Of a stretch of 64,000 nucleotides of DNA, positions 13,068 through 29,954 are shown piece after piece. Position 1 is the first letter of the stretch; each line of letters opens with the position of its first letter. The DNA is from Lacticaseibacillus absianus (GTDB lineage Bacteria; Bacillota; Bacilli; Lactobacillales; Lactobacillaceae). The DNA is taken from assembly GCF_013407595.1 (NCBI RefSeq), contig NZ_JABEKX010000001.1:390522-454521 (forward strand). Direction: 5' to 3'. The notes beneath the pieces were generated by a model. The model saw only the letters and a program-made list of their open reading frames with translations, made no database searches and was not told where the DNA came from. The position numbers and the translations under genes are program-made.

Positions 13068-13090
13068 TCGCTGACCGTTGATCATGACAA

Positions 13091-13135
13091 CACCGCACCG
13101 ACGCCTCATTTGAGGGGCACCGGTGCGGTGTTTTT
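13091..13135 (+). terminator. terminator of hsp20
   Basis: CACCGCACCG at 13091-13100 pairs with CGGTGCGGTG at 13121-13130, with an inner GCCTC/GAGG hairpin, followed by five T. It may also serve the convergent minus-strand gene. Confidence 0.85.
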
Positions 13136-13140
13136 GGCGT

Positions 13141-14121
13141 CTAATCGCGGCGCAGGCCGTAGTTGATCTTTCCTGCTAGGCTGATGAAGTACTCGGCCAG
13201 CTGGGTGGCCGCGGTCGGGTCGGCGGGGCCGAGCCCGAAGGCGATCTGCGGGTTCAAGATCGCCCGCGGGGCCAGCTTCTCTGTCGGCGTGTGCTTGGCG
13301 CGCTTCTTGGTCGCCGGCATGGTCTGGGTCAAGGCGCGCAGCGGCGTCTGGCCGAACGCCACCGGCGGATCCGCCTCGGGGGCCGGCGTGAGCGCTGGCA
13401 GCGCAGCCTTGGCCGGCGCGCTGGGTTCAGGCGGCGCCGCTGGGGCGGCCGGGGCCGCTGGCGTGCTGGCGACTGGCGCGGATGACGATGCGGCACTGGC
13501 GCTGCTGGCCGTCGCGGGCGTGCTGCTGGCGGCCGCCGGGGCGACCAAGCGGATGGTGAAGGTCGCTGGGGTGGCGGTGAAGGTCGCCGGGGTCAGCGTG
13601 TCGTTGGCCTGCACCTGGTAGCCGGCAGTCGTGTAGGCGAGCAGGACGTTGCCAACGTTGAAGGCGATCGCCGTACCGACGGTGCCGGTGTAGTGCTGCT
13701 GGGCCAGCAGGGCGCCAGTCTCATCGACGATGTTCAGCGTGGCGCGGCCGGTCTGGGTCGCGCTCGACTCGCTGGTCGCCTTGGGCTGCACGCGGATCGT
13801 CAGGGTCTGCTCGGCCGCCGTCAGGGTGTAGGACACCGCGATCGGCTGATCGGCGCTGCGGACGTAGCCATTCGGCGCGACGACGGCGAATGTGCCGGTG
13901 TTGCCGATCTGACCGGTCAGCGTGCTGACGGCGACCAGTGCGTTGTTGTCCGCCACGTTGACGTATTGGATCGTCAGCGTGGCCGCCGCGGCGACGGCAT
14001 CCGGCTGCGGCGCGGCGTGGACAGGGGCGCCTGGCGTCGCGAAGTGCAGCGCCATCAAGGAGCCGGCGATCACCGCCGTCGTGGTCCCGACTTGGCGGAG
14101 CTTATGGCCGTCAAGCGTCAT
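13141..14121 (-). CDS. secreted MucBP-like protein with Pro/Ala-rich tail
   Basis: A 326-residue exported protein. The ATG at 14119-14121 follows AGAGGG by 8 bases; a GTG three codons upstream is less well placed. A signal peptide ends near PVHAAPQ. Residues 45-200 are beta-rich and resemble two MucBP-like modules (LTIQYVNVADNNALV, then LNIVDETGALLAQQHYTG). Residues 195-260 are low-complexity Ala/Pro/Ser. No LPXTG or membrane anchor is seen, so it is probably released or held non-covalently. The start overlaps the stop of the upstream Mga-like gene by 11 bases, indicating translational coupling. MucBP modules in lactobacilli bind mucus glycans, but the match here is weak. Confidence 0.65.
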   Translation of the reverse strand: MTLDGHKLRQVGTTTAVIAGSLMALHFATPGAPVHAAPQPDAVAAAATLTIQYVNVADNNALVAVSTLTGQIGNTGTFAVVAPNGYVRSADQPIAVSYTLTAAEQTLTIRVQPKATSESSATQTGRATLNIVDETGALLAQQHYTGTVGTAIAFNVGNVLLAYTTAGYQVQANDTLTPATFTATPATFTIRLVAPAAASSTPATASSASAASSSAPVASTPAAPAAPAAPPEPSAPAKAALPALTPAPEADPPVAFGQTPLRALTQTMPATKKRAKHTPTEKLAPRAILNPQIAFGLGPADPTAATQLAEYFISLAGKINYGLRRD

Positions 14122-15595
14122 GGGGGGCACCCTCTTTCTTGAACAGGCGCGAGGTCTTGGCCTGCCGGATCATCAGGATCATGTCGGCGAGCTGGGACCA
14201 GTCGTTCGGCGTCGGCGGGTTCTGCCAGATTACCTGCGCGGCCCGGACTCCGGTTGCACGAAAATCCGAGATATAGATGTCCGTTTTGGCCGTGGCGGTG
14301 GTCTGGATCACGAGGTGGGCCTGGGTGAAGGCGTTGAGCGTCGTGATGATGTAGTCCGTGTACAGCGGACCCTGGGAGAAGTCGACACAGACGTAGACCT
14401 GGTCGTTCATCATCTGCGGCGGGATCGCCGAGATCAGTGCGAACATGTAGCTGAAATACAGGTTCGTCGCCATCGTCGTGGTCAGGGGCAGGGCGGTCGT
14501 GTGGCCGATCGTCTGGATGAACTGCACGAGCACGATGTCGAAGCCGGGGTACAGCTCGCGGAAGAAGGTCACCGCCTCTGGGTCGATGAAGGTCGTCGGC
14601 TCGATGAAGAAGGTGGTGAACTGCAGGTGCAGGTGGTACAGGGTCTCGCGCAGCTCGGTCTGATCCAGCGCTTGCGTGGCGAACAGGCCGCCTTGTTCGC
14701 TGAGCGCGGCCATCAGTGAGTCGGTCAGGGTGGTCGCCTGGGGGAAGGCCGCGGCCAAGCACGGCGCGTCCGGCAGCGGCAGGTAGCCCTGCGCGATCAG
14801 GAACAAGTAGAGGTAATCCAGCTCCGTCGCGCTGACGGGGATGGTGCTGGCCAGCACGGCCCCGCAGGCCCGCTGCAGCGTCTGGCCGGTCGGTGTGACC
14901 AGCGTGGGGTCCAGCAACGGGGCTTGGAAGGTCTCTGAATTCTGGACCCGCAAGAGCCACAGCTTCATGAACAGGCGCAGCTTGGTGGTCTGTGTCGGCT
15001 TGAGCGTGCCCAGCAGCGGCCCGATCGCCGTGAACAGGCGGTCGACCAGCGCGTCGAGCTCGGGGAACGCCGGGGCGACCCCGGCGTACATCGTGTAGTA
15101 GAGCTCGAACAGGCTCAAGCGGGTGGTGAACTCGGGATCGGTGACGCTGCCGGTCGGGGTGAAAAAGCCGGCTGCTTCCAGGTCTGTGTTCAGCTTGGCG
15201 GCCACGCTGTAGAAGGCCGGTGTGGAGATCGACTGGCGCTTGATATACTCGCGCCGCGTCATCTGGTTGCTGTAGAAGAAGTGGTATTCGAGCACCAAAA
15301 ACGCGCTGGCGCGGTGCAGATACGTCAGCGCCAGCTGCTGTAGCGTGTAAGTGGTGATGTTGTTGGCGCGCCAAAACCCGCGAGTGCTTTCATCCAGATA
15401 TGCCGGCACCGGCGGGTCGAGCGCCTTGAGGTCGAGGTTGATCATCTCGAAGGCCTTATTGATCTGATACGCCGTCAAGTCCCACTGCTCGCTCAGCGTG
15501 CGCTTGTCGAGCGCGACCGTCGCGCGCTGAAGGATCGACCGCAAGATCGCGTAGTGGCGCTGGTCGTCCTTATCGAAGAGAAAACTGTAATTCAT
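14111..15595 (-). CDS. Mga-like helix-turn-helix transcriptional regulator
   Basis: A 494-residue protein with the layout of Mga/AtxA-type regulators: N-terminal winged helices (residues 10-60 with TLSEQWDLTAYQINKAFEMI, and about 85-150), a long helical middle that in relatives resembles PTS regulatory domains, and a C-terminal EIIB-like part. The ATG at 15593-15595 follows GGGAG by 9 bases; the GTG two codons upstream is too close. A TATAAT box lies at 15629-15634. In streptococci such proteins activate surface-protein genes, and here the next gene encodes a secreted MucBP-like protein. Whether PTS phosphorylation controls it cannot be judged from sequence alone. Confidence 0.75.
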   Translation of the reverse strand: MNYSFLFDKDDQRHYAILRSILQRATVALDKRTLSEQWDLTAYQINKAFEMINLDLKALDPPVPAYLDESTRGFWRANNITTYTLQQLALTYLHRASAFLVLEYHFFYSNQMTRREYIKRQSISTPAFYSVAAKLNTDLEAAGFFTPTGSVTDPEFTTRLSLFELYYTMYAGVAPAFPELDALVDRLFTAIGPLLGTLKPTQTTKLRLFMKLWLLRVQNSETFQAPLLDPTLVTPTGQTLQRACGAVLASTIPVSATELDYLYLFLIAQGYLPLPDAPCLAAAFPQATTLTDSLMAALSEQGGLFATQALDQTELRETLYHLHLQFTTFFIEPTTFIDPEAVTFFRELYPGFDIVLVQFIQTIGHTTALPLTTTMATNLYFSYMFALISAIPPQMMNDQVYVCVDFSQGPLYTDYIITTLNAFTQAHLVIQTTATAKTDIYISDFRATGVRAAQVIWQNPPTPNDWSQLADMILMIRQAKTSRLFKKEGAPHDA

Positions 15596-15628
15596 CTGCA
15601 CCGCTCCCGTGTCGTGTTGTCTGTTCCC

Positions 15629-15676: not shown

Positions 15677-15717
15677 GTGTCTGCGTTTATTGACCGATCA
15701 GCAAAAAACGCAGACAC
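15677..15717. promoter_or_regulatory. long palindrome upstream of the Mga-like gene
   Basis: A 16-base arm at 15677-15692 and its complement at 15702-15717 match at 15 of 16 positions around a 9-base loop. The core TTG-N9-CAAAAAAC resembles the inverted repeat at 19883-19913. It could be an operator or a bidirectional terminator. Confidence 0.5.
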
Positions 15718-15733
15718 TGGCCGGCCGCGATCA

Positions 15734-16020
15734 GGCCAACGCGGGGGCGCCTTGCTTCGGTTCGGCTTCGCCTCACGCCGCAGGAATAGCGGCACGGGTC
15801 AGCGACGCCAGACCCCTCGGATCTAGGAGCGGTCCAAAGCGCCCGGCTAGGCTAGCCGTCCCGCTAAGGGCGGCCTTGCGCCGCTCTGGCACCGTCGAGC
15901 GCCGGACTCGCAACGCGGGCGCGTCTAGCCACGCTCAGCACGTCGAGCCTCAGTGCGGGCTCAACGCACTGAGCGAGGTTAGCCGTCCCGCTAAGCCCGC
16001 AGTCCTATGCGCTGGTTATC
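15734..16020 (+). repeat. intergenic repeat family, copy 1
   Basis: About 290 bases beginning GCCAACGCGGG and ending CGCTGGTTATC. It is closely matched by copy 2 directly downstream, by 18960-19231, and by an inverted shorter copy near 42.7 kb. It contains perfect hairpins such as CTCAGTGCG/CGCACTGAG. Open frames across it differ between copies and have no ribosome binding sites, so I do not consider it coding. Confidence 0.85.
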
Positions 16021-16326
16021 GTCGAGCGCCGCTAGGCCAACGCGGGCGCGTCTTGCTTCCGTTCGGCTTCGCCTTACTTCGCAGGACACATGAAACATAG
16101 CGGCATGGGTCAGCTACGCCGGGCCCCTCGGACCCAGGAACGGTCCAAGGCGCCCGGCTAGGTTAGCCGTTCCGCTAAGGGCGGCCTTGCGCCGCTCTGG
16201 CACCGTCGAGCGCCGAACTCGCAACGCGGGTGCGTCTAGCCACGCTCAGCACGTCGAGCCTCAGTGCGGGCTCAACGCACTGAGCGAGGCTAGCCGTCCC
16301 GCTAAGCCCGCGAGTCCTATGCTCTG
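16021..16326 (+). repeat. intergenic repeat family, copy 2
   Basis: A direct repeat of copy 1 with scattered substitutions and a small insertion near 16088. The hairpin CTCAGTGCG/CGCACTGAG is conserved. Confidence 0.85.
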
Positions 16327-16328
16327 GC

Positions 16329-16362
16329 AAAAAAAACAAAGCCCGGCAATGGTGGGCTTTGT
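16329..16362 (-). terminator. minus-strand terminator hairpin
   Basis: On the minus strand ACAAAGCCC (16354-16362) pairs perfectly with GGGCTTTGT (16336-16344) and is followed by a run of T. No protein gene lies upstream on that strand, so it may end a small RNA. Confidence 0.75.
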
Positions 16363-16622
16363 CCTGGTGGAAGCTATGATCGACACCCGTGGGAGGAGTG
16401 CCGACGAAGTATTGTGCAGGTGCGTTGGGGGACGCACCATGAGGCTATCTTACCCAGCCTGACGGTGGCGTCAAGGGGGGCACCGGGGCGCCAGTCGGGC
16501 CGAAACCGTCAGGTGAGGATTTCTCCCGTTTTTGACGGGTTTGGCGTGGCAGCGCATCGGCCGGGGTAACATGGACCTTGTTCATCGGCCCCGTGCCGAG
16601 CTCACATTAATCCGTAGATGAG
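16363..16622 (-). other. structured intergenic region, possible minus-strand small RNA
   Basis: No gene is supported here. The stretch has several hairpins, for example GGTGCGT/ACGCACC at 16419-16438 and CCCGT/ACGGG near 16523-16537. On the minus strand it leads into the terminator at 16329-16362. I could not match it to 6S RNA, SRP RNA, RNase P RNA, tmRNA or a known riboswitch. Confidence 0.3.
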
Positions 16623-16673
16623 ATGTCGCCCATGATCCTACGATTCCGTGCACCAAGTAAAGGAGGTCCACTC

Positions 16674-17420
16674 ATGCAAGAGACGAAGCCGCAGCCGATG
16701 GTCAGACAAAACCGCCTGATCGTGCGCTACGTGGATCAAGATGGTCATAAGTTGAATGACGATCTCAGTATTTTTGGCGCGATCGACAGTGAATACACCG
16801 TGAACGTGCCAGCGTTCGCCGGGTTCCGCCTGATCGCCCAGTCGCGCCCCAGTACCGGGGTGATGCCGACCGATGAGGCCCCGACCCTGACGCTGACTTA
16901 CTCGAAGCTCGCGTCGGTCATGGTGCTCGAAGACGGGCGCAAGCCGCAGGAACTGAAGTTGCAGGCGGACCCAGACGCGCCCGGCGAGCTGGTCCCACTG
17001 CAGCTCCCGCACCGCAGCGACGAGAAGCGCTACTACCTCAAGACCGCCAGCGGTTACGAGCTGATCACCGACCCGGCCCACTTCGTGCCGGCCGCGCCGT
17101 CGACGCGCACCGCGGTGTACGCGATGATGCCGCTGGAGTCGCTGGCCACCCCAGAAGTCCCGGCCGCCCCAGCGCCTGCGAAGGCCGCGCCTGCCGGTCG
17201 CGACGGCAAGGTCGACACCGCGTCGACCACCCCAGAAGTGCCCGCCGCGCACCGCCCGGCGGACCAGGCGATCGTTTTGCTGATGGCCAAGGCGCTACAC
17301 CAGCAGGCGATGTTGCTCGACCACAACGTGGAGGCCGACTTGTTGAAAACAGAACAGGTCGCGACCCTGATGACGAACATGCGCGCGTTCATGCAGGCAC
17401 TGGCCCTGATGACGCACTGA
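16674..17420 (+). CDS. cytoplasmic MucBP-like protein of unknown function
   Basis: A 248-residue protein. The ATG at 16674 follows a near-perfect AAAGGAGG. Residues 13-80 (RLIVRYVDQDGHKL through LTLTYSKL) look like a MucBP-type beta module, and residues 80-160 may be a second, diverged module. A Pro/Ala linker (150-195) leads to a helical C-terminal region (205-248). Unusually for a MucBP-like protein, there is no signal peptide and no anchor, so it is either cytoplasmic or exported by another route. It is followed at 16 bases by a small interrupted gene and then an SseB-domain gene. The module assignment is by eye. Confidence 0.6.
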   Translation: MQETKPQPMVRQNRLIVRYVDQDGHKLNDDLSIFGAIDSEYTVNVPAFAGFRLIAQSRPSTGVMPTDEAPTLTLTYSKLASVMVLEDGRKPQELKLQADPDAPGELVPLQLPHRSDEKRYYLKTASGYELITDPAHFVPAAPSTRTAVYAMMPLESLATPEVPAAPAPAKAAPAGRDGKVDTASTTPEVPAAHRPADQAIVLLMAKALHQQAMLLDHNVEADLLKTEQVATLMTNMRAFMQALALMTH

Positions 17421-17653: not shown

Positions 17654-18508
17654 ATGATAGACCCACAAGAGATGACTGCGGTCACGTCGCCGAGTGTCGT
17701 ACCGACGCCGCCGACGTTGCAAGGCGGGGCCATGGCGATTCAGCTGAATCGCTTCATCGGCGATCCGCTGAACGAAGACACGGCGCGACGGTTTGCCAGC
17801 ATGCTGCAGACCGCGCAGTTCGAGGCGCTGGTCAAAGTGGCCACGACGGGTCAGGTGCAACGCGATGACGTCAAGCCGACGATGACCATGCGCCTCGGCG
17901 TCACCACCTATCTGGCCGACGGGCAGCAGTATATCCCGGTGTTCACCGACGCGGCGACGCGGCAACACTTCACGCAGCACATGGGCGCGAACCTCGACAT
18001 GCGCAATTTCGCATTCGCGACCGCCGAGCTGATGCAGGAGGTCCGGCGCCTCGGCGTGCACGGTCTGCTGGTCAACCCCGGTCGCCAGTCGTTCCCGCTG
18101 ACGCTCGACTACTGGGACTACATCACGCGCGTCGTGCCGGTGATGGAAGCCGAGGTCGAGCGCGTCAGCATCGAGGCGCTGACCATCGACAAGCTGGTCT
18201 TGTCCCGCGCGCTGACCCGTGCCGCCAAGCGACTGCACGGCGTCAAGCAGCTCTGGACGACGAATGTGCGTGAGACCACCAACGGCCCGCTGGCGCTCGC
18301 GATCATTGCCGATTACACCGGGACCCCGGCCGAGTTCGACCGCAAGTGTGCCCGCGCGTTGGTCGTGGCCTGCCGAGGCCTGCTGGCCGCAGATCAAGAC
18401 GTTCTGATCGGCACGACCGCCGATCCGCTCGGGCAGACCATCAGCGGACAGATCACCCCGGTGTACCAGGCGACCGGGTTCTTGGGAAGGAAGATCAATT
18501 ATGATTAG
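17654..18508 (+). CDS. SseB-domain protein, paralogue 1
   Basis: A 284-residue soluble protein with the SseB-type fold: residues 40-145 match the N-terminal domain (TYLADGQQYIPVFTDAATRQHF, then GLLVNPGRQSFPLTLDYW), and residues 155-275 fit the C-terminal domain. No signal peptide or membrane segment is seen. SseB-domain proteins were named for enhanced serine sensitivity, and their biochemical role is unclear. It shares many positions with the product of the gene at 20102, including YLADGQ.Y.P.FT, the PG..S.P.TL.YW.YI segment, and a C-terminal LGQ.I motif. The start follows AAGGGGTG. The next small gene overlaps its end by 8 bases. Confidence 0.7.
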   Translation: MIDPQEMTAVTSPSVVPTPPTLQGGAMAIQLNRFIGDPLNEDTARRFASMLQTAQFEALVKVATTGQVQRDDVKPTMTMRLGVTTYLADGQQYIPVFTDAATRQHFTQHMGANLDMRNFAFATAELMQEVRRLGVHGLLVNPGRQSFPLTLDYWDYITRVVPVMEAEVERVSIEALTIDKLVLSRALTRAAKRLHGVKQLWTTNVRETTNGPLALAIIADYTGTPAEFDRKCARALVVACRGLLAADQDVLIGTTADPLGQTISGQITPVYQATGFLGRKINYD

Positions 18509-18730: not shown

Positions 18731-18786
18731 AAAAGGAACCAAGACTGGAAATCCGCTTAGGAGAATTTCCGATCTTGGTCCTTTTT
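18731..18786 (+). terminator. terminator of the first SseB operon
   Basis: A long imperfect stem (AAGGAACCAAGA with TCTTGGTCCTT, plus GGAAA with TTTCC) is followed by five T and preceded by A-runs, so it could work in both directions. Confidence 0.85.
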
Positions 18787-18959
18787 GCTTCTCGTCAGAC
18801 AGCCTTTTTAAGGCGGTCATGTCATCGGCCCCTGAAAAAAGGCAGAAAGGTGAGCCGTCCTGCTAAGAAGCCCGGGAGATGCGCACAACATTGTGGCTTT
18901 GGGGCTGACGTTGGGCGGGAACTCACCAATGGTTGGGTGCTTGCTTACTACTTCCCGAT

Positions 18960-19231
18960 CGTCGTCGAGCTCTGCAAGGCCAACGCGGGCGCATCTTGCT
19001 TCCGTTCGGCTTCGCCTCACGCCGCAGGACACCTTGGACCCAGGAGCGGTCCAAGGCGCCCGGCTAGGCTAGCCGTCCCGCTAAGGGCGGCCTTGCGCCG
19101 CTCTGGTGACGTCGAGCTGCGGACTCGCAACGCGGGCGCGTCTAGCTACGCACAGTACGTCGAGCCTAAGTGCGGGCTCAACGCACTGAGCTAGGCTAGT
19201 CGTCCCGCTAAGTCCGCGAGTCCTCCGCTCT
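18960..19231 (+). repeat. intergenic repeat family, copy 3
   Basis: This copy begins GTCGTCGAGCTCTGCAAGGCC and shares with copies 1 and 2 the blocks CCAACGCGGGCGC, GGTCCAAGGCGCCCGGCTAG, GGCGGCCTTGCGCCGCTCTGG and the CTCA...TGAG hairpin region, with about 10% substitutions by eye. Confidence 0.85.
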
Positions 19232-19880: not shown

Positions 19881-19915
19881 CTCGGTTTTTTGATCGACGG
19901 GCAAAAAACGCAGAA
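19881..19915. promoter_or_regulatory. palindrome related to the one at 15677-15717
   Basis: GTTTTTTG and CAAAAAAC are perfect arms around 9 bases, extended outward with two mismatches. The same T-rich/A-rich core and similar loop occur ahead of the Mga-like gene. It lies about 190 bases before the second SseB-domain gene. Confidence 0.4.
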
Positions 19916-20101
19916 ACAGAGGCGGTTAATTCCATTAACCAACATGCTAAGATGACTTCATCAGACGTCACCGTGAGAAGCGTGGCGTCATTGACGGAGT
20001 GTCAAGTGCGCCACGTGTGAGCATCTCGCCACGCCTTAAGACCACAGTGTGTTGACTTTGGGGAAAGTCGCACACGTTCAGCCGGTCGGAGGAAAACAGA
20101 G

Positions 20102-20932
20102 ATGACGAATAATTACAGCGGTCAGATCGCCGCACCGCAGCTGCGGCTGGTCCAGCCCGGGGAGCACCCGGCAGTGAGCCCGCAGCCGGTGCCGACGAAT
20201 TTTGCCGATCAGCTCGCGCAGTTCATCGCGCACCCACAAGACATGATGGTCGAGCGGCGCTTCGCCGCGCGCCTGCTGAAGTTGACCGTGTTTGTCCCGG
20301 CGCTTGAGGGCCCGGGCAAGCAGCGGCTGGCCAAGACGACCTACCTTGCAGACGGACAGGCCTATGTCCCGGCGTTCACCACGGCGGCGGCATGCGCCGC
20401 GTTTATCGCCACGGCGGCCGGGACCACCTGGCCGATGACGCCACAAGCACTCGAGATGAGCACGGTGATGACGGCCAGTGAGCAGTACGCACTAGCCGGG
20501 GCCCTGCTGGATCCGGGGACGAGCTCGATGCCCGTCACGCTGGCGTACTGGCGCTATATCAACCGGGTGATGCCGGTGATCGATCCCGAACTGAGTGCGG
20601 TCGCACTGCTGCCGGAGGCCTTCGACCTGACGGGGGTCAGCGCCGCGCTGGCGGCGTGTGTCGCGCAGGTGGCGGGGATCACCGCGTACTGGGCGGTGCC
20701 GGTGCGCCTGACGCCAGACGACACGGTGTGCTTGGCGGTGATGGCGGCGTACCGCGGTGATCCGGTGGTGTTCGACACCCAGATCGCCCGCGAGCTCGCG
20801 GCGGCGTGTCAGCCCGCCGTGCCCGCCGCTGTCGACATTGTCACCGGGACGTTGCAAGACGACCTGGGACAATACATCGCCCACCACTGCGCCTCGGTCC
20901 GCACCGAGACGCGCCAGCGACACCATGCCTGA
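20102..20932 (+). CDS. SseB-domain protein, paralogue 2
   Basis: A 276-residue paralogue of the protein at 17654. Residues 55-150 hold the N-terminal SseB-type domain (TTYLADGQAYVPAFTTAAACAAF, then GALLDPGTSSMPVTLAYWRY), and residues 155-265 the C-terminal part, ending near DDLGQYIAHH. It is soluble, with no signal peptide. The start follows GGAGGA by 8 bases. A hairpin with a T-run separates it from the next small gene and the tandem Rgg-like regulator, so those may be expressed by partial readthrough. Function unknown; the pairing of two SseB paralogues in one island suggests that they act together or in parallel. Confidence 0.68.
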   Translation: MTNNYSGQIAAPQLRLVQPGEHPAVSPQPVPTNFADQLAQFIAHPQDMMVERRFAARLLKLTVFVPALEGPGKQRLAKTTYLADGQAYVPAFTTAAACAAFIATAAGTTWPMTPQALEMSTVMTASEQYALAGALLDPGTSSMPVTLAYWRYINRVMPVIDPELSAVALLPEAFDLTGVSAALAACVAQVAGITAYWAVPVRLTPDDTVCLAVMAAYRGDPVVFDTQIARELAAACQPAVPAAVDIVTGTLQDDLGQYIAHHCASVRTETRQRHHA

Positions 20933-21026: not shown

Positions 21027-21275
21027 ATGGAAGACCCGCTGATCGACCTTGGTGGTTTCACCCGCCAGTCGCAGACGACCTGGACGGACGCGCAAGGCCG
21101 CACCGTGACGCAGACCCAATACGACCACGCGCTGATCGTCGTGACGGTCGCTGACCCGGTGACCCAGACGATCCACGTGCAGAGCAACTGCCAGTGGCTG
21201 CGCGCCGGGCAGCGGTGGCGGCCGGACCTGAGCCAGCGTGACGCGGACTGGGCTCCACGGGGGGTGAGCCGATGA
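21027..21275 (+). CDS. small hypothetical protein coupled to the tandem Rgg-like regulator
   Basis: An 82-residue protein. The ATG at 21027 follows CAGGAGG with 5 bases of spacing. The centre is beta-rich (TVTQTQYDHALIVVTVADP) and the C-terminus has several Trp and Arg residues. No signal peptide, membrane segment or known domain. Its last four bases (ATGA) contain the start of the regulator gene, so the two are translationally coupled. A role as a partner or modulator of the regulator is only a guess from position. Confidence 0.55.
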   Translation: MEDPLIDLGGFTRQSQTTWTDAQGRTVTQTQYDHALIVVTVADPVTQTIHVQSNCQWLRAGQRWRPDLSQRDADWAPRGVSR

Positions 21276-23101
21276 CAGAAGTCGCCTTGATCGATTTTAT
21301 CGACCAGACCCGCCGGATGAAGCACGTCTCGATCCAGGCCCTGGGGCGGTCGGCCGGGCTCTCGAGCTCGACGTACAAGCGGCTGCGTGAGGGGCAAGCA
21401 GAGCTCAAGATCCATGTCTTGATGAACCTGATGACGGCGCTGCGCCTGGAGATGAGTGACATCGACCCGTACCTGGCCGACGACCTGCTGACGACGCAGA
21501 CGACGCTATCGGCGACGCAAGAGCTGATCAACGCGATCGTGAGGCGACAGGTGCCGCCGAGCGCGATGAGCGCCCACAGCCAGCGACTGCGGGCGGTCGC
21601 GACGCGCTCCGGCCTGCCCGGTGATGACTTACAGGCGCAGTACGCGGAGCTGATGGAGGCCAAACTGACGGGCGACGTCAGCGCGGCCGAACGCCGCGCG
21701 CTCGACTTGTACGGGGCGCTGACGACCTACACGGCCTGGACCGGCTTCGAGTACCAGCTGATCTTGCCGTGCATCAGCTTCCTCGCCTACACGCAGCTCA
21801 AGCGGCTGGCCGTACGCTTCTTCGGTGCGACGATGCCGGTGGTCTCGGCAGTCGCGGCGGAGGCGGTCGATGATGACTACATGGCGATGCTGAGCAACGT
21901 GATCGCGACGCGGCAGTCGGCACATGTCGGGCTGGTGATCGGCTGGATGCAGGCGCGCAAGACGCAGGCGGACCGCATGAAGTACCAGCTCTACCTGCGC
22001 TTCGCCCACATCGTCGAACAGGCGCTCCTGGTCGGCGCCGCCAAGGCTGAGGGGCAGTACCGGACGCTCCAGACCGTCTTGCTGCGGATCTGGCCGGACC
22101 AGGACTGCCCGTTCGCGAGCGTCTTCACCCGGCTCTGGGCCCAAGTTGAGCGGCTGTCTCGAGTCCGGCACCTGTCGACCCCGGCGGTGCCCAGCGGGGT
22201 GCCGATGCCGCTGGCGGCGCCGCTTGAGAACTTCGGTGCGCTGGTCAGCCGCTACCGGCAGGCCAAGCGGGAGCGCGGCGACGCGCTGCGCAAGGCGCTC
22301 TACGTGTCCAAGTCCGCGTTCTACCGCTTCTTCAGCGAAGGGGCGGACGCGAAGCTGACCGTGTTGATGGCAGCCTTCGACTACCTGCGCATCGACGGGG
22401 CTGACCTTGTCACGGCCCTAGAGGCGACCGAGCTGCCACTCGCCGCCGCCGCGCGGGAGACGTTCGCGCTGGTCGATACGCCACCGACGACGGCCATCGA
22501 GTTGCAGTACCTGCAGACGCAGATCGCCAGCCTGAAGACTCAGGCCGCCGCCACCGGTAACGTCGGCTTCGCGCAGCTCGCAACGCTGGTGGAGATCACG
22601 TGGCTACACGCGAGCGATGCGCCGCTGGCCGAGGCCAAGGCGATCGCGGCGCTGTACGCTGACCTGACCGCCTATGACAGTTGGAACGCCTTCGAGTACC
22701 GGCTGGTGATCCGGCTGCTGCCGGGGCTGGACTTCAAGGTCGCGGCCTTCCTGTTCGACCGGCTGATCCGCACCGAGCGCACCCGCAGCGCGACGATCAA
22801 CGGTCTGACGCCAGAAGACCTCGACGCCGTCTACATGGGTTTGCTGCAGAGCGCACTGCGCTCCGGTGTGCAGGCGAATATTCAGCAGGCGACTGCGTGG
22901 ATCATGGAGCGGCGCACGCCGTCCACCGCCATCGGCTTCCGGCTCAGCCAGGCGGTGGTCCGCGAGAGCATGAGCGTGCAGGAAGCGGAGGTCCGGCTGA
23001 ACGACACGGATCTGGAGAATGCGCTGTGCGCGCTGTTCCCCGCGTCCATGGCGTTGCGGATCGCCACCCGCGTGCGGCTGTTCTGGCAGGACGTGGCGTG
23101 A
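21272..23101 (+). CDS. tandem (single-chain) Rgg-like transcriptional regulator
   Basis: A 609-residue protein made of two similar halves. Each half has an N-terminal helix-turn-helix (residues 5-60: VSIQALGRSAGLSSSTYKRL; residues 318-380: LRKALYVSKSAFYRFFSEG) followed by about 190 residues of helices. Matching landmarks are YTAWTGFEYQLILP near residue 153 and YDSWNAFEYRLVIR near residue 467, a period of about 315 residues. The W..FEY.L pattern and helical repeats resemble the peptide-sensing domain of Rgg/MutR regulators, which are normally about 285 residues and act as dimers. A fused dimer is therefore the simplest reading. No short signalling-peptide gene was identified nearby. The adhesin genes downstream could be targets. 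Confidence 0.65.
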   Translation: MTEVALIDFIDQTRRMKHVSIQALGRSAGLSSSTYKRLREGQAELKIHVLMNLMTALRLEMSDIDPYLADDLLTTQTTLSATQELINAIVRRQVPPSAMSAHSQRLRAVATRSGLPGDDLQAQYAELMEAKLTGDVSAAERRALDLYGALTTYTAWTGFEYQLILPCISFLAYTQLKRLAVRFFGATMPVVSAVAAEAVDDDYMAMLSNVIATRQSAHVGLVIGWMQARKTQADRMKYQLYLRFAHIVEQALLVGAAKAEGQYRTLQTVLLRIWPDQDCPFASVFTRLWAQVERLSRVRHLSTPAVPSGVPMPLAAPLENFGALVSRYRQAKRERGDALRKALYVSKSAFYRFFSEGADAKLTVLMAAFDYLRIDGADLVTALEATELPLAAAARETFALVDTPPTTAIELQYLQTQIASLKTQAAATGNVGFAQLATLVEITWLHASDAPLAEAKAIAALYADLTAYDSWNAFEYRLVIRLLPGLDFKVAAFLFDRLIRTERTRSATINGLTPEDLDAVYMGLLQSALRSGVQANIQQATAWIMERRTPSTAIGFRLSQAVVRESMSVQEAEVRLNDTDLENALCALFPASMALRIATRVRLFWQDVA

Positions 23102-23514
23102 GGGGTGAACTAGTGGCGACGGTTAACGATATAATGCGTTTTTTAATTCGTTTTTATTGAAATGTGACATAAAATGCGAAGATTCACATGATAATATAAA
23201 TCCCGAATCAGTGACCCCCATGAACTAACTACTTACGGCCACCGGGCAACGTCTGCTGCGTAGGCGCTGTCCGGTGGCCGTTTGGCGCATCTTGGGCAGC
23301 AGTGAACGTGATGGCGAGTCCCTGATTTGACCGGTTTTCGCAACCCAGCGACCGGGCCCGGTAAGATAGTCACATAGCCTAACGTCGTCAGGCTGCCGCG
23401 TGCAGCTTGATCGCCGGTCAATGCCTCGGTAAGTGCCGGGCACGGGCCGCGTTCGGGCGAGACGAAGCATGACCTGACCACGAGGATCAGGGGCGTTCAT
23501 GAGGAGGAATCGGA
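23102..23514. other. promoter region of the first giant adhesin
   Basis: A gene-free region of 413 bases. The first 110 bases are AT-rich with TATAAT-like boxes (near 23130 and 23192) and two copies of a CGTTTTTTA-like motif. The rest is GC-rich and contains a hairpin at 23235-23281. Regulation by the Rgg-like or Mga-like proteins is possible but unproven. Confidence 0.4.
23235..23283 (+). terminator. hairpin, possible terminator
   Basis: ACGGCCACCGG at 23235-23245 and CCGGTGGCCGT at 23271-23281 are perfect 11-base arms, followed by only three T. It may end the regulator transcript. Confidence 0.5.
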
Positions 23515-26500
23515 ATGTATCGATGCAGTAAGGGGTCGCGGCTTCTACGCGACACAGCTGAAGAAAAGCGCCACTACAAGATGTACAAGAAGGGCAAGCT
23601 CTGGATGACCGCCGGGCTCTCTTTGCTGTATGCCGGCATGATGTTGACGAATCAGTTGCAAGAAGTCCATGCCGATGAAGCCGATGGCGCGACTGCCGTA
23701 GTGGCCGACCAAGCGGCGACGACGGAGACCACGACGCAAGGCGGCGTGGTGCTCCAGAGCAGCAAGCAGGCCGCGGCGACCACCGCAAGTGCGCAGACGA
23801 CTCCAACGGCCGAACCGGCCGCGACTGGCGCTACCGCCAGTGCGGCGGGCAAGACGGCGACGGCTGATGCGGCTGAAGCGACCGAGATCACCGATCCGAC
23901 GACCGCGACTGCCTCTGTCGCGGCGATCATCGGCACCGGCGTCACCCTGCAAGACCAGACAGTCACTAGTGACCAGGTCGAAGAAGCGCGGGTCTATTCG
24001 GTGACCCTGACCCAGGGCCTCGTCGCACCAGCATGGACCGCGGCGGATTTTGACGTCGCAAACTTATCGAGCGAATCGGGCACCTACGCCGTGACCTTGA
24101 GCGCTAAGGGCCTGCGCGCGCTGCAAGACGCGAACCCGAGTTACCGGGTGACGGCGGCCAATGTGGCCGCGGGGCACCTGATTGTGACCGCAGCGCAGTC
24201 CGCAGAGACCAAGACCTCAGCAACTGAGGCCGAAGTGACCACACAGGCTGCCCAGACGACTGCGGACACGGCAACGACCGAAGACGCCGCGACGATCGCT
24301 GCGACTGAGACCGAGACGACGCCGGTACCTGTCGCGGCCACCAACCGCTACAGCAGCGCGACGGCCCAGAACCTGGCCGAGGGTGCCGCCAAGACGCTGG
24401 CGCAGATCAAGGTCTTCGTGGCCCAAGACGACGCGCTGGCCGCAGCCGACGAGACCGACAACATCGTCAACAACGCGGCGATGAAGGCCCTTGAACAGCA
24501 CATGACTACGGAAGCGGCAGCCATTGCTGACCTGACGGTGGAAGCTGAGGCGCTGTCCGTCACCGACGTCGAACAGGCGCTGGCGAAGCTGACTCAGGCC
24601 GCCAAGCTCCTCAACACGATGAACCAGGAACTGACCCAAGCGGCGTCGATGCTGGACAAGGACAAGTACGGCTACAAGCTCGGCGCCAAGCAGACCGCCG
24701 AAGATGCGCTGGCTCAAGCCGCGCTGCCGGATAACGTGTCCGCCATCGTCGATGACTATGGGGATCTGATCATCACGGCGTCCAGCGAGTCTAGCTACCA
24801 GGCCGCCGTGCAGGCACTGAAGGATCAGGGCCTGATCGGGGCGTTCCGGGAAATTGTAGACCCGAATGATCAGGCGGCGACGCATGTGGGGACGAATATC
24901 TTTGATGAGCAGGGGCACTATCGGGTGATCGCGGCATCACAAAGAGATTTCGCTGATGGGAAAATGACAGTCGCGGATATTGACTTGACGGGTATTGACC
25001 CAGACAACATTGTGGCGGCATATTTTGTGGCTCAGGCAGAAGCTGGTGATTCAGCTACACAGGCGAATCTGGTGAATGGTGGTCAGCTACAACTCTACTG
25101 GGATGACTTTACAATTAATCCAGGACGATATTTTGCGGGATATACGGCTGACAGCGACCATTCAAAGATCTCTTCTGCTGGGTTTGGTGGCTATCAACTC
25201 CCGGTTATGGCTGCGGGAAATGCGAATAACAATGCCTTCTTGGCGTACGTTAATGACCTTGATCTGGCGCGACAGTTAGCGGGAGGAAAGCATAGAGTAG
25301 CAGTTGGCTTGCCAGGGGTAAAAGCGGGTAGTTGGAATAGTGTATCTGTGTTCGTGGTCGTTCGTGACCCTAATGCGCCGCTTTCTCGCGTCACGATCAA
25401 TGATTCAGGGGCTGCCACAGGTAGCACCAACAGTACCTCAGTTTTGACCATCCAATCGAATATTGCTAAAGGTTACCAAATCCCTGACGGGGCTGAGCTA
25501 AATGTCATGATTGGTCAGGGGTCTTTTCCAGATACTGGTGATTCTATCACGGGGACAGCCTCTGTTGATGGCGGGCCAGATACGCCACTAAACATCAAGG
25601 TGGTAGCGCCTGCCGAGGGCTGGATTAATGCTATCTCCGCAGATGTGAATGTGCAAGCGGGAGACACAGCGGGTTCGGTGACTGCTACGTTTAAGCTTTT
25701 TAATAAGGCGGGTTCCGGCCGGGATACCATGGGCTTTATCGTTCAGCAGATCGAGATCGAAGCCCAGGGGGCCAAGTTTCATTACCTAAGTAGCGAAACC
25801 GGTTTGCCAGTTGGCGTCGGTCTGCAGGGAGGCGAGCCGTTCACTGATGTGAACGGGGAGACGACCACACCGATGATCGACGAGAAAGGCACGTTCCTGC
25901 TTCAAGGGGCGCCTGGCGACCCGATCCCGCGGGAAGAAGTGGATATTCCTGGTTATTTCCTGTCTGGGAGCGAGACCGGCGACACCGACTGGAAGTTCAA
26001 GGCCAATGGGAGCACGATTGTCAAGTACTACTACACCCCGAACACTCAGAAGATCAATGTTACGTATGTGGATGACGACGCAACAGATCCACAGGACTTA
26101 TCTGCCTTTGCTGAGACCATGAGTGGTAAGACGGACGCTGACGCTGACGACACCTTGTGGGACTTTGCCAGCGCTGGGTACGAATGGGTCGGAGAAGAGG
26201 ACCAGTCGCAAGGCGCGCAAGGCTTGGGGACGAATGCCGATCACACCACGTTGACCGGGATCTACACGACGACCGAAGAGCTCGACCCAATCACGCGCAA
26301 ACTCGTCACTGGCACCGAGACCGACCAATCCATCGTGATCCACCTAAAGCACAAAGTGACCGCGACTGAACTCGGGTTCTCGGTCAGTCGTGAGGTTCAA
26401 CTTCTCGAACAGGGGACGGAGACCGAACTGCAGGCCCCACTGCTTCAGGCGGATCTGCCAGACCCGGCCGACCGCGTTACGGATGCGGATAAGTCTGGGG

Positions 26501-29500
26501 TGACCTGGCACGTGGTCTCTCTGTTCGATGAGGCGACACAGACGGACCTCGGTTACGACACGAACGGCGACGGGATCGCTGATACCAGCGATCCGTTGAG
26601 TGCAGCGTACCTTGATGCGGGCGAAAGCGATACCCTCGCGGCGATCACGGTCCCGACCATCAGCGGTTACACGGCGGTGGCGGTCACCGGGGATACCCAA
26701 CCTGGGGATACCGCCACAACGATCGGGGCACTGACGATCGGCTCCGATTACAACGGCGCTAACGAGCTCAAGCTCACGGTTTACTATCAGAAGAACGTGG
26801 CCGAGGCGAGTGTGCAGATCAGCGGCTTCGAGAAGGTCTATGACAACGATTCGTCGCAGGATCCGACGACGTTCACCCTGACGTCTGCCGATCCGGCGCT
26901 CCAGATTCCGGCACTGACTGAGGACGATTTTGACCTGAGTGCCGTCTCACAAGAAGTCGGCACCTATGACATCAAGCTGTCCGCCGCCGGCTTACAAAAA
27001 CTACAGGAGGCGAACCCGTCGTATTACCTCACGACGGCTTCGATTGGCGTTGGCCACTTCACCGTCACCCCGGCAGAAGTGTCCGTTACGCTGGCATACC
27101 TCCAGAAGATGTATGACGGCCAGGCGTTCCCTCAGGCGACGGCAGACGAGCAGGCGAAGATCGATAGCTATATCAATTGTTTCGACGTACCGACGCTGGG
27201 GATCACCCCAGTTCTGACGATCGGCGACCTGAGCGCGTTCGTCGATGTTGGGGACTATGACATCACCCTGGCACCTATCGACATGACGAGTGCGGCGAAC
27301 CGGAACTATCACTTCACCGTTGAACCGGGGATCCTGCGCATCTATGATGCCGCAGCGACGAATCCTAACCAGTTGCTGATGAGCCAGCCGACCGAGACGA
27401 TCACGTATCAATATGAGAATGGGGACCGTGCCAACGTCTGGAATACCGACGGCACGCCGGCACCGAACGGTGAGGGGCGGTTGAACACACACACCGAGAC
27501 CGTCACCTTCACCCGTCTTGGGTACGCGCCGATGGCGTATACCAATATGATCGATTACAGCGAGTGGACACCGACCACGGTTAGCTTCAACGCTGTCGAT
27601 ACGCCGTCGATCGTGGGTTACACCGCTGATGTGACGACTGTGGCGGCGACGCCGGCGACGGCTGACGGGCAGCCGATCGCGGTCATCGTGACTTACAAGG
27701 CGAATGAGCAAAAAGCCGTGATCACCTACGTCGACGATAGCGCCGGTGGCGTGACCGTGCATACCGACACCATGACTGGCGGTAGCGCAGCGCAACTCGA
27801 CTACACCGTCGTGCGTCGGGCGATTGAACATGGCCTGCTCACGCAAGGCTATCTGATCGACGGGGACGACCTACCGACCGGCAACGTGATCACCTTCGAT
27901 ACTGATGACCTGGTGAACCAAACCTACACGATCCACCTGAAGCATAGCGTCACCACGATCACGCCAGACGAGCCGGGCACACCGGGCGAGCCGATCAAGC
28001 CAGGGTTACCTGACTGGCCGGCAGACTCCGCAAAGGCGCAGCTTGAGCGGACCGTGACCCAGCGCGTGCAGTACGTCTACGCCAAGGGGGGTAAGGTCGC
28101 CGACGATATCATCACGACCAAGACCTTCCAGCGCACCGGAACTGTGGACAACGTGACCGGTAAGGTCACCAACTTCACCGACTGGGTGGCAGTAGACGGG
28201 GACAGCTTCGACGTGCTGACCAGCCCTGAACAGGCGGGTTACACGCCGGATCTGACCGCGACGGAGGCCTACACCGTGAACGCGAACACTGGGGATATGA
28301 ACCTGGTGGTCACCTACACGACAGACGGCCAGCGGATCTTGATCAACTACGTTGATGACGATGCGAGTGGTGTGACGGTCCACACGGACACCTTGACCGG
28401 TGGCAGTGAGACGACGCACAACTACACCAATGTACGCCAGGCGATCGAAGGCGGGCTGCTTAGTCTCGGCTACCTGATCGACGGAGACGACCTGCCAATC
28501 GGCAACGTCGTGACCTTCGATACGGATACCAAGACAGATCAGACTTACACCGTTCACCTGAAGCACAGTACGACTGAGATCACGCCAGACGAGCCGGGCA
28601 CACCGGGCGAGCCGATCAAGCCAGGGTTACCTGACTGGCCGGCAGACTCCGCGAAGGCCCAGCTCGAACACACCGTGACCCAGCGCGTTCAGTACGTCTA
28701 CGCTAAGGGCGGCAAAGTGGCTGCGGACGTGGTCAATGTCAAAGTCTTCCAGCGCACCGGAACTGTGGACAACGTGACCGGTAAGGTCACCAACTTCACC
28801 GACTGGGTGGCAGTAGACGGGGACAGCTTCGACGCATTGACCAGCCCTGAACAGGCAGGTTACACGCCGGATCTGACCGCAACGGACGCCTACACCGTGA
28901 ACGCGAACACTGGGGATATGAACCTGGTGGTCACCTACACGGCGGACCAGCAACAGCTGCGGGTCGTCTTCTTCGATGATACGACGCATCAGTGGCTGGC
29001 GACGAAGTACGCGACCGGGGAGACTGGCACGACGAGCCTGTACCGGACCGATTCCGACATCGCGATGTACCTGCGACTCGGCTTCGAGCTGGTGTCGGAT
29101 GGTTATCCGACGACGGGCATCGTGTTCGACACCGACTCTACGCATCACCAGACTTACGGCGTGCACCTGAAGCACGGGATGGTCACGGCCACCCCAGCGC
29201 AGCCAGGGAAGCCGGGGCAAGCAATCGACATGGATAATCCGGACGGGCCGAAGTGGCCGGCGGAGACCGGAATCGATGGCCTACAGCGGGTGATCACGCA
29301 GACGATCCACTATTTCTACCAGGATCAGACGCAGGCGCATGCGGATGTGGTCGATCAAGTGACCTTCACCCGTACGGCGACGGTCGACAAGGTCACTGGC
29401 GCGACGGTCTTCACCGACTGGGTCGCCGTGGACCAGGATACGACTTTTGACGCCAAGACCAGCCCGAAGTTGACGGGATACACAGCGACGCCTCAGGCGA

Positions 29501-29823
29501 TCGCGGCGGTCACAGGGCTGAACGCGGCAAGTGCAGATATGGAAGAGACGGTCATCTACGTCCGAGTGACGGACCCGACCGGCCCGACCGATCCGAAGGG
29601 GCCGAAGACGCCTCAAACGACAGTCGATCCGAATGAACCGCAGGGGCCAGCACTTCAGCCACTCGACTCACGCGTCGACGACACGACGACCGACACACCG
29701 GCAGTGGGGCAACTGCCGCAAACGGGCGACGAGAAAAATCAACTGCTTGCTGCGACCGGGCTCAGCCTGATCGGCATGCTTGGACTCGCGGGGGCGATGG
29801 TCAAGCGGCGGCGTGAGGAATAA
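23515..29823 (+). CDS. giant LPXTG adhesin with KxYKxGKxW signal, MBG and MucBP/Mub modules
   Basis: A 2102-residue surface protein. The ATG at 23515 follows GAGGAGGAA. Residues 22-53 carry the signal motif KMYKKGKLW and a hydrophobic stretch. A Thr/Ala-rich region is followed by an MBG-like module (about 150-230), a helical region (280-400), and a globular, lower-GC segment (about 445-740) that looks like a ligand-binding domain. Then come MucBP-like modules (FHYLSSETGLPVG; INVTYVDDDATDP), MBG modules with KVYDND and KMYDGQ, and Mub-type repeats with TYVDDSAGGVTVHTDTMTGG. The C-terminus has LPQTGDEKNQ, a hydrophobic segment and an RRREE tail. It probably binds mucin or other host or partner glycans. 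KxYKxGKxW signals are known for accessory-Sec substrates, but no secA2 or secY2 is in the window. Confidence 0.9.
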   Translation: MYRCSKGSRLLRDTAEEKRHYKMYKKGKLWMTAGLSLLYAGMMLTNQLQEVHADEADGATAVVADQAATTETTTQGGVVLQSSKQAAATTASAQTTPTAEPAATGATASAAGKTATADAAEATEITDPTTATASVAAIIGTGVTLQDQTVTSDQVEEARVYSVTLTQGLVAPAWTAADFDVANLSSESGTYAVTLSAKGLRALQDANPSYRVTAANVAAGHLIVTAAQSAETKTSATEAEVTTQAAQTTADTATTEDAATIAATETETTPVPVAATNRYSSATAQNLAEGAAKTLAQIKVFVAQDDALAAADETDNIVNNAAMKALEQHMTTEAAAIADLTVEAEALSVTDVEQALAKLTQAAKLLNTMNQELTQAASMLDKDKYGYKLGAKQTAEDALAQAALPDNVSAIVDDYGDLIITASSESSYQAAVQALKDQGLIGAFREIVDPNDQAATHVGTNIFDEQGHYRVIAASQRDFADGKMTVADIDLTGIDPDNIVAAYFVAQAEAGDSATQANLVNGGQLQLYWDDFTINPGRYFAGYTADSDHSKISSAGFGGYQLPVMAAGNANNNAFLAYVNDLDLARQLAGGKHRVAVGLPGVKAGSWNSVSVFVVVRDPNAPLSRVTINDSGAATGSTNSTSVLTIQSNIAKGYQIPDGAELNVMIGQGSFPDTGDSITGTASVDGGPDTPLNIKVVAPAEGWINAISADVNVQAGDTAGSVTATFKLFNKAGSGRDTMGFIVQQIEIEAQGAKFHYLSSETGLPVGVGLQGGEPFTDVNGETTTPMIDEKGTFLLQGAPGDPIPREEVDIPGYFLSGSETGDTDWKFKANGSTIVKYYYTPNTQKINVTYVDDDATDPQDLSAFAETMSGKTDADADDTLWDFASAGYEWVGEEDQSQGAQGLGTNADHTTLTGIYTTTEELDPITRKLVTGTETDQSIVIHLKHKVTATELGFSVSREVQLLEQGTETELQAPLLQADLPDPADRVTDADKSGVTWHVVSLFDEATQTDLGYDTNGDGIADTSDPLSAAYLDAGESDTLAAITVPTISGYTAVAVTGDTQPGDTATTIGALTIGSDYNGANELKLTVYYQKNVAEASVQISGFEKVYDNDSSQDPTTFTLTSADPALQIPALTEDDFDLSAVSQEVGTYDIKLSAAGLQKLQEANPSYYLTTASIGVGHFTVTPAEVSVTLAYLQKMYDGQAFPQATADEQAKIDSYINCFDVPTLGITPVLTIGDLSAFVDVGDYDITLAPIDMTSAANRNYHFTVEPGILRIYDAAATNPNQLLMSQPTETITYQYENGDRANVWNTDGTPAPNGEGRLNTHTETVTFTRLGYAPMAYTNMIDYSEWTPTTVSFNAVDTPSIVGYTADVTTVAATPATADGQPIAVIVTYKANEQKAVITYVDDSAGGVTVHTDTMTGGSAAQLDYTVVRRAIEHGLLTQGYLIDGDDLPTGNVITFDTDDLVNQTYTIHLKHSVTTITPDEPGTPGEPIKPGLPDWPADSAKAQLERTVTQRVQYVYAKGGKVADDIITTKTFQRTGTVDNVTGKVTNFTDWVAVDGDSFDVLTSPEQAGYTPDLTATEAYTVNANTGDMNLVVTYTTDGQRILINYVDDDASGVTVHTDTLTGGSETTHNYTNVRQAIEGGLLSLGYLIDGDDLPIGNVVTFDTDTKTDQTYTVHLKHSTTEITPDEPGTPGEPIKPGLPDWPADSAKAQLEHTVTQRVQYVYAKGGKVAADVVNVKVFQRTGTVDNVTGKVTNFTDWVAVDGDSFDALTSPEQAGYTPDLTATDAYTVNANTGDMNLVVTYTADQQQLRVVFFDDTTHQWLATKYATGETGTTSLYRTDSDIAMYLRLGFELVSDGYPTTGIVFDTDSTHHQTYGVHLKHGMVTATPAQPGKPGQAIDMDNPDGPKWPAETGIDGLQRVITQTIHYFYQDQTQAHADVVDQVTFTRTATVDKVTGATVFTDWVAVDQDTTFDAKTSPKLTGYTATPQAIAAVTGLNAASADMEETVIYVRVTDPTGPTDPKGPKTPQTTVDPNEPQGPALQPLDSRVDDTTTDTPAVGQLPQTGDEKNQLLAATGLSLIGMLGLAGAMVKRRREE
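24850..25735 (+). other. low-GC mosaic segment inside the first adhesin gene
   Basis: Codon choice changes abruptly here to A/T-ending codons (GTA, AAT, TTT, GGT), while both flanks use almost only G/C-ending codons. The frame stays open. The encoded segment (about residues 445-740) looks globular. This suggests replacement of the binding domain by recombination with lower-GC DNA. Confidence 0.75.
28006..28950 (+). repeat. near-identical tandem Mub-type repeats in the first adhesin
   Basis: Two consecutive units of about 612 bases are nearly identical over long stretches, for example from GATCACGCCAGACGAGCCGG (27957 and 28578) through the NVTGKVTNFTDWVAVDGDSF segment. This indicates recent duplication or gene conversion. 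Confidence 0.8.
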
Positions 29824-29864: not shown

Positions 29865-29935
29865 GAATATTGTGGGGTATTCATCAAGTCGTCCTGATCC
29901 GTCAGGACGGTTTGGTTGAGTACCCCAAATATTTG
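29865..29935 (+). promoter_or_regulatory. nested inverted repeats in the leader of the second adhesin gene
   Basis: An imperfect outer stem (29865-29882 with 29918-29935, core TGGGGTA/TACCCCA) encloses a perfect 8-base hairpin CGTCCTGA/TCAGGACG (29890-29897 with 29902-29909). It ends 9 bases before the ribosome binding site. It may be an attenuator, an mRNA-stability element or a protein-binding site. Confidence 0.45.
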
Positions 29936-29954
29936 GTCGAAATGGAGGAGCAAG

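Follow-up and report, generated by a model that had tools for sequence, protein, structure and literature searches.

The window, by which we mean the whole stretch of 64,000 nucleotides under analysis, carries at 21272 to 23101, on the plus strand, an open reading frame (ORF) that runs from an ATG at 21272 to a stop codon at 23101 and encodes a two-unit ElrR/Rgg-like regulator of 609 amino acids. Its first unit (residues 1 to 295; 21272 to 22156, plus strand), with a Cro/C1-type helix-turn-helix (HTH) and a helical-repeat domain, is matched by a unit profile over residues 4 to 295 and is followed by a Pro/Ala-rich linker (approximately residues 296 to 313; 22157 to 22210, plus strand), which fills the gap between both unit matches and lies in a region where the predicted model has pLDDT values below 50 (residues 300 to 376). 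The second unit (residues 314 to 609; 22211 to 23098, plus strand), a diverged HTH and helical-repeat domain, is matched by the unit profile over its full extent, from residue 314 to residue 609.

The start codon of the regulator overlaps the stop codon of an ORF of 82 amino acids (21027 to 21275, plus strand) in the sequence ATGA, and the ATG of this 82-residue ORF is preceded at 5 nt by AGGAGG, a good Shine-Dalgarno sequence. The 4-base coupling to an 82-residue protein described in the sequence-only reading, a model's earlier interpretation of the letters, is thus present, with the upstream gene as the partner; this protein is an orphan, the best relative outside its own genome having an E value of 0.0375 when 30 Lacticaseibacillus genomes, its own included, were searched. 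Further upstream, a gene for an SseB-like protein of 276 amino acids (20102 to 20932, plus strand; PF07179, E 3.5e-5, 24.4 bits versus a cut-off of 21) opens an apparent operon composed of the SseB-like gene, the 82-residue orphan and, as the last gene, the regulator. An SseB-like gene (48% identical; 12827 to 13678 of region L032) also directly precedes the ortholog of the regulator in another Lacticaseibacillus genome, G023.

Several other features lie upstream of this apparent operon. A second SseB-like protein, with 35% identity to the first over 245 amino acids, is encoded at 17654 to 18508, and a MucBP-domain protein (E 3.3e-9) at 16623 to 17420; on inspection by eye the latter has neither a clear signal peptide nor a clear anchor, and it is 41% identical over 159 amino acids to a protein found near a single-unit regulator in genome G002. 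These two genes are surrounded by mutually repeating short ORFs (15690 to 16462 and 18775 to 19194; 75 to 97% identical in translation), probably a dispersed DNA repeat. On the minus strand, at 14111 to 15601, lies a gene for an AcpB/EbpR/MafR (Mga-like) regulator, recognized by an NCBIfam match with an E value of 6.3e-15, which is below the family cut-off, and a 53% identical counterpart of it is located between the two doubled regulators of G023.

Downstream, an intergenic region (23102 to 23514) with an AT-rich stretch is presumed to hold the promoter and operator of the gene that follows, which encodes a giant cell-wall adhesin of 2102 amino acids (23515 to 29823, plus strand) with a KxYKxGKxW signal, MBG, MucBP_2 and Muc_B2 repeats and an LPQTG anchor; the start at 23515 is that of the listed ORF, and the true start may be slightly downstream. 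The next gene (29916 to 36419, plus strand) encodes a second giant surface protein with a KxYKxGKxW signal, its anchor match being below the Pfam cut-off. Right after the regulator stop codon, a GTG-initiated ORF of 15 codons ending in MRFLIRFY was read by eye at 23113 to 23160; lying within the AT-rich stretch taken to be the promoter, it has probably arisen by chance. Among ORFs of at least 20 amino acids in 19890 to 20105 and 23090 to 23520, no SHP-like pheromone gene was recognized by eye.

Two homologous units in one chain

The two-unit architecture of the regulator is well supported. In a BLASTP comparison, residues 1 to 310 align with residues 311 to 609 at an E value of 2e-14 (24% identity over 276 columns), and the local-alignment score of one half against the other is 175, a value approached by none of 2000 shuffles (mean of 38, maximum of 77). 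The period of about 315 residues proposed from the letters alone is borne out by the motifs YTAWTGFEYQL at residue 153 and YDSWNAFEYRL at residue 468 (467 in the sequence-only reading), which are 315 residues apart, and so is the proposal of a 609-residue protein with two homologous halves.

Assigning each half to a family was possible with profiles, which were needed because single-sequence searches of the halves against the Protein Data Bank (PDB) were unconvincing: nothing significant was retrieved with unit 1 (5v5t at E 1.1), and with unit 2 an HTH was the sole match (3tyr, E 0.0078). In hmmscan searches, the whole protein gave weak HTH matches only, unit 1 alone gave three weak Pfam HTH matches, all below cut-offs, and unit 2 alone gave no Pfam match; the NCBIfam VanU HTH model hits the HTH of unit 2 at E 9e-5, a score well short of the model's cut-off. 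A profile built from 17 one-unit homologs, with the window excluded and the database size set to 1000, recovers unit 1 at E 1.2e-55 and unit 2 at E 1.3e-41, one of the 17 singles (that of G002) being probably a shortened double. When the two halves of the 609-residue protein were combined with the 17 singles into a 19-unit profile, the best match was ElrR of Enterococcus faecalis (5v5t) at E 5.3e-16 over nearly its full length, followed by Rgg2 (2.5e-11), NrpR (9lth; 5.2e-10), a MutR/Rgg3 chain (3.4e-8) and, weakly, PrgX (0.13); the alignment with ElrR spans most of the unit, that with Rgg2, Rgg3/MutR and NrpR its first two-thirds or the HTH. Profiles of N-type (A8) and C-type (A7) units, each of which also includes singles, match one another at E 5.7e-43 over 295 columns, the N-type profile finding ElrR (5v5t) at E 3.9e-15 over positions 4 to 299 of 304 and the C-type profile finding NrpR (9lth) at E 2.2e-7 and ElrR at E 1.4e-5 over positions 4 to 255 of 300.

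The predicted structures point in the same direction. The full-length AlphaFold model (8 sequences; mean pLDDT of 61.2, pTM of 0.39), in which unit 1 lies mostly at pLDDT 65 to 85 and unit 2 lower, is not interpretable for packing of the halves. Its Foldseek search returned 43 chains at an E value of 0.001 or lower, superposed loosely (rmsd of 6 to 13.5 Å) and with the aligned half not specified, and all 43 are PrgX, ElrR, Rgg2, Rgg3, Rgg144, ComR, NrpR or a putative regulator of Listeria, with PrgX as the best row (E 5.9e-5). Unit 2 modeled alone (9 sequences; pLDDT of 64.3, pTM of 0.49) had no Foldseek match at an E value of 0.001 or lower; ElrR chains occupy its top five rows (E 1.8e-3 to 7.3e-3, TM scores of 0.44 to 0.52), and the first 37 rows all belong to the same superfamily except the Listeria putative regulator. 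An Xre-type N-terminal HTH is accordingly found in both units, in unit 1 by the weak Pfam matches and in unit 2 by the unit profile, and C-terminal helical repeats of the degenerate TPR kind are found by Foldseek in models of low to moderate confidence. A half lacking the HTH or the sensor fold, which would have spoken against the duplicated layout, was not seen; the profile and fold searches place both halves beside ElrR, Rgg and PrgX.

By HTH and fold, the protein is a member of the RRNPP superfamily, within its Rgg/PrgX/ElrR branch, and it is not a canonical Rgg: TIGR01716 (RGG_Cterm) matches neither the 609-residue regulator nor any other double and has one match elsewhere in the genome. 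The description of the protein as Rgg-like therefore stands as far as units of the ElrR/Rgg/PrgX kind, with an HTH plus helical repeats, are concerned, but ElrR is the nearest relative and, since TIGR01716 does not match, "ElrR/Rgg-like" is the right label. ElrR (5v5t, 5v5u), which gives both the best whole-unit profile match and the top fold match of unit 2, is a single unit of 306 amino acids, whereas the regulator described here has two diverged units per chain. The streptococcal Rgg2, Rgg3/MutR, Rgg144 and NrpR share the HTH and helical-repeat fold by profile and Foldseek, but are single units of 280 to 288 amino acids, and the doubles have no TIGR01716 match. PrgX of E. faecalis, a regulator of plasmid conjugation, is likewise a single unit; it heads the Foldseek rows of the full model but is a weak profile match.

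Two alternative rationales concerning the nature of the chain have to be weighed: (i) the protein could belong to a different long regulator class of similar length, the AcpB/EbpR/MafR (Mga/AtxA type) regulators, for which lengths near 500 amino acids are usual and one of which is encoded 5.7 kb away at 14111 to 15601, and (ii) only unit 1 could read DNA, with unit 2 as a degenerate tethered partner for dimerization or ligand sensing, so that the chain would be a one-headed mimic of an Rgg-like dimer. The first is extremely improbable, as NF053736 matches the neighbor only (below its cut-off) and not the 609-residue regulator, whose fold and profile matches are of the PrgX/Rgg/ElrR kind. The second would agree with the lack of a Pfam family for unit 2 alone, as against three weak HTH families for unit 1, and with the residue at the HTH turn, which is Tyr in the C-type units from both the window and G023, the corresponding first units having Gly and Asp, respectively. 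On the other hand, unit 2 does match an HTH structure (3tyr) and, below the cut-off, the VanU HTH model, and it keeps the Ser and the Arg that are invariant in all 19 aligned units; we consider a one-headed chain unlikely and favor two complete units, each with its own HTH.

Recurrence and history of the doubled form

The search for further fused copies suggested in the sequence-only reading was rewarded, and the doubled form is not a one-off. Nine firm two-unit proteins, in which both units reach an E value of 1.5e-15 or better with the singles-only profile, were found in four genomes. The window's own genome (G000) encodes four, namely, the 609-residue protein and proteins of 641 (C1:653k), 647 (C5:95k) and 627 (C1:992k) amino acids; two further Lacticaseibacillus genomes encode two each (612 and 590 amino acids on contig C15 of G023; 610 and 650 amino acids on contigs C16 and C28 of G010), and a genome of another genus of the same family (G072) encodes one of 610 amino acids on contig C14. 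Seven more proteins of 589 to 759 amino acids (G017 C24, G010 C6, G010 C27, G012 C1, G000 C6, G006 C4 and G011 C32) are candidate doubles with a clear first unit and a second unit that is detected at an E value below 0.01 in three and is unconvincing in the rest (0.29 to 26). With pooled profiles, their first and second halves match each other at E 1.6e-10 over 204 columns; their common profile of unit 1 finds Rgg144 (7.8e-11), a MutR/Rgg3 chain (1.6e-9) and Rgg2 (1.7e-9), and that of unit 2 retrieves ComR HTH rows only (E 0.43 and 0.47).

With the 609-residue protein as the query, 12 of 60 genomes, its own included, gave matches at an E value of 1e-5 or lower, all of them in one genus of the 25 sampled, and with a profile as the query 25 of 30 Lacticaseibacillus genomes gave matches at 1e-8 or lower. 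Searches with the A1 profile, in which 5 to 9 candidates were scored per genome and the counts are lower bounds, matched at least 16 of the 395 genomes searched in the order (at 1e-14) and at least 23 of 251 genomes of the family (at 1e-12); among the candidates scored, G072 is the sole genome outside Lacticaseibacillus to show a double. As a control, TIGR01716 matched 281 of the 395 genomes of the order, with at most 7 candidates scored per genome, and the matches listed have open frames of 197 to 349 amino acids, none of them doubled. A search of plasmids and one scan of viral contigs returned no relative.

The arrangement of units in a tree of 33 units indicates the order of events. First units pair with first units and second units with second units, both for the 609-residue protein and its G023 ortholog, which is full length and 30% identical (support of 97/95 and 100/97, respectively), and for the three other doubles of G000 (100/100 each), and the fusion therefore predates the splits among these doubles. 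Adjacent codirectional pairs of one-unit genes occur in Lacticaseibacillus nasuensis (G004), L. yichunensis (G020) and L. mingshuiensis (G021), where the first genes cluster together (95/86) and so do the second genes (94/85); clustering by position shows that a two-gene state exists. In contrast to the doubles, each of these tandem Rgg-like pairs encodes two polypeptides, the genes either overlapping or being separated by 16 nt. As 13 of the 30 inner branches are open and some rows are long-branched, both a single old fusion followed by losses and several fusions are possible.

The converse process may be seen in G002, where a one-unit gene of 329 amino acids starts with the linker of the 590-residue double of G023 and is 77% identical over 310 amino acids to the linker plus second unit of that protein, and lies at a position where some 10 kb present in the G023 locus, the first unit included, are missing. 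This gene is best read as a double that lost its first unit; an insertion in G023 is a possible alternative. Together with a double on contig C4 of G021 that is interrupted by a stop codon (an open piece of 425 amino acids covers unit 1 and runs into the first part of unit 2), the G002 locus, which retains the linker and second unit only, could be taken to suggest that the fusion is accidental or decaying and without function. The full-length G023 ortholog, at 30% identity, and the further proteins with both units open argue against this, and we regard a decaying fusion as very improbable.

Small proteins of 137 to 208 amino acids with the motif CxCDCG...SCGC were observed in six of the 12 retrieved regions and bracket the two-double locus of G023 (L032 4524 to 5150 and 15406 to 15906; the others lie at L034 10645 to 11058, L035 12670 to 13083, L038 7477 to 7956, L031 15449 to 16030 and L039 1626 to 2183). 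The segment after the motif presumably is AP2-like, judging by its appearance, and the two proteins tested had no Pfam match at an E value below 0.01.

Linkage to adhesin genes and proposed function

Thirteen KxYKxGKxW signals above the cut-off are present in the window's genome, and three of its four firm doubles (those of the window, C1:653k and C1:992k) are encoded directly before a KxYKxGKxW gene, with the next such signal on the same strand 459, 259 and 400 bp downstream. Random placement within 500 bp has a probability of about 0.001 per double and about 6e-9 for three of four, a calculation assuming an independence that is broken by two of the loci, since the C1:653k and C1:992k doubles are paralogs with 40% identity. 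Eight other KxYKxGKxW genes of the genome, those for which the upstream 4 to 5 kb was retrieved, have no such regulator there. In the other genus, the G072 double is followed on the same strand, after 69 nt, by a gene for an LPxTG-motif protein (found by regular expression, with a putative start codon), and a single-unit relative on contig C4 of G021 is divergent from a WxL protein gene about 440 bp away. Adjacency to a surface protein gene, of the kind seen for ElrR, is thus found for the double of the window and for the paralogous C1:653k and C1:992k doubles, and, in the strict sense of a position directly upstream, not for the C5, G023 and G010 doubles. The C5 double follows the gene for ribosomal protein L1, and its contig has no KxYKxGKxW gene downstream on the same strand; none of the two doubles each of G023 and G010 lies directly before a KxYKxGKxW gene, in G023 some 8.6 kb separating the nearer double from the closest same-strand signal downstream, and in G010 no signal being near; and none of the seven candidate doubles is within 5 kb of one.

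Shared words in the downstream regions provide leads for an operator. The 12-mer TTTTTATTGAAA, at 23151 in the window, is common to the regions downstream of the window and C1:992k doubles, and 13 of 500 shuffles yielded a word of that length shared within at least one of the three pairs. The 10-mer ATTAGTTAAT is present in the DNA that follows both the C1:653k and the C1:992k double and was rejected as a significant operator motif by itself, its length having been equaled in 54 of 500 shuffles. A further copy precedes one single-unit gene (G026) by 48 nt, and the three sites of this 10-mer, two of which served to choose the motif, compare with an average of 0.025 in shuffled flanks of 21 genes; both words are treated here as leads only.

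Taken together, we lean toward the interpretation that the protein is a covalent pseudo-dimer of the ElrR/Rgg type (RRNPP) that controls the neighboring adhesin gene. Each half would be a complete unit, with an N-terminal Xre-type HTH and a C-terminal sensor of degenerate, TPR-like helical repeats, and the chain most likely folds into an asymmetric "dimer" of its own two halves, with a pair of unlike DNA-reading heads, both of which may bind DNA. Acting most likely in cis, the regulator would control the KxYKxGKxW/LPXTG mucin-binding adhesin gene that starts some 0.4 kb beyond it, and the signal would be a small ligand in the cytoplasm, which is probably a peptide. Activation of the adhesin gene is the favored sign, with repression as the alternative. 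ElrR is reported to be an Rgg-like activator of the elrA operon of E. faecalis. It is described as a positive regulator of the elr operon of WxL/LPXTG surface proteins (PMC4522977), and it is by analogy with this role, together with the adjacency of the adhesin gene, that a cis activator is favored.

Alternatively, the regulator could control its own operon (the SseB-like and 82-residue genes) or distant genes, in which case the proximity of adhesin genes would reflect clustering in variable surface-gene regions. The SseB-like neighbor kept in G023, the position of the C5 double after the L1 gene with no KxYKxGKxW gene following, and the G023 and G010 doubles that do not directly precede such genes are all consistent with this explanation. 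It accounts less readily for three loci at which the next gene after a double, no more than 500 bp away and on the same strand, carries a KxYKxGKxW signal (P of about 6e-9, an independence assumed that the two paralogs break), as well as for the LPxTG-motif gene that follows the double in another genus, and it appears to us quite unlikely in comparison with control of the adjacent adhesin gene.

The RRNPP_detector description (PMC10075063) gives lengths of 285 to 473 amino acids for validated RRNPP receptors and a default filter that keeps proteins of 250 to 500 amino acids; at 609 amino acids the regulator falls outside this range, each unit of about 295 amino acids falls within it, and doubled receptors of 590 to 650 amino acids would consequently be missed in surveys using such a filter. 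No description of a doubled Rgg/RRNPP receptor was found in the literature searched, which consisted mostly of the openings of abstracts, with subscription journals sparsely represented.

On a broader and more speculative level, obligate single-chain pseudo-dimers might constitute a new class of RRNPP receptors, in which two nonequivalent DNA heads and ligand pockets, reading asymmetric operators and two signals (AND/OR logic), control the accessory-Sec-type adhesins of lactobacilli; this extends the idea of asymmetric operators or two peptides raised in the sequence-only reading, and we hold it to be doubtful though conceivable. If it is a natural covalent heterodimer, the regulator would offer, through separate mutation of its halves, a means of asking whether both protomers of an Rgg-type receptor must bind ligand and DNA. 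It is also a candidate for the local control of giant mucin-binding adhesins, in a genus that has uses in food.
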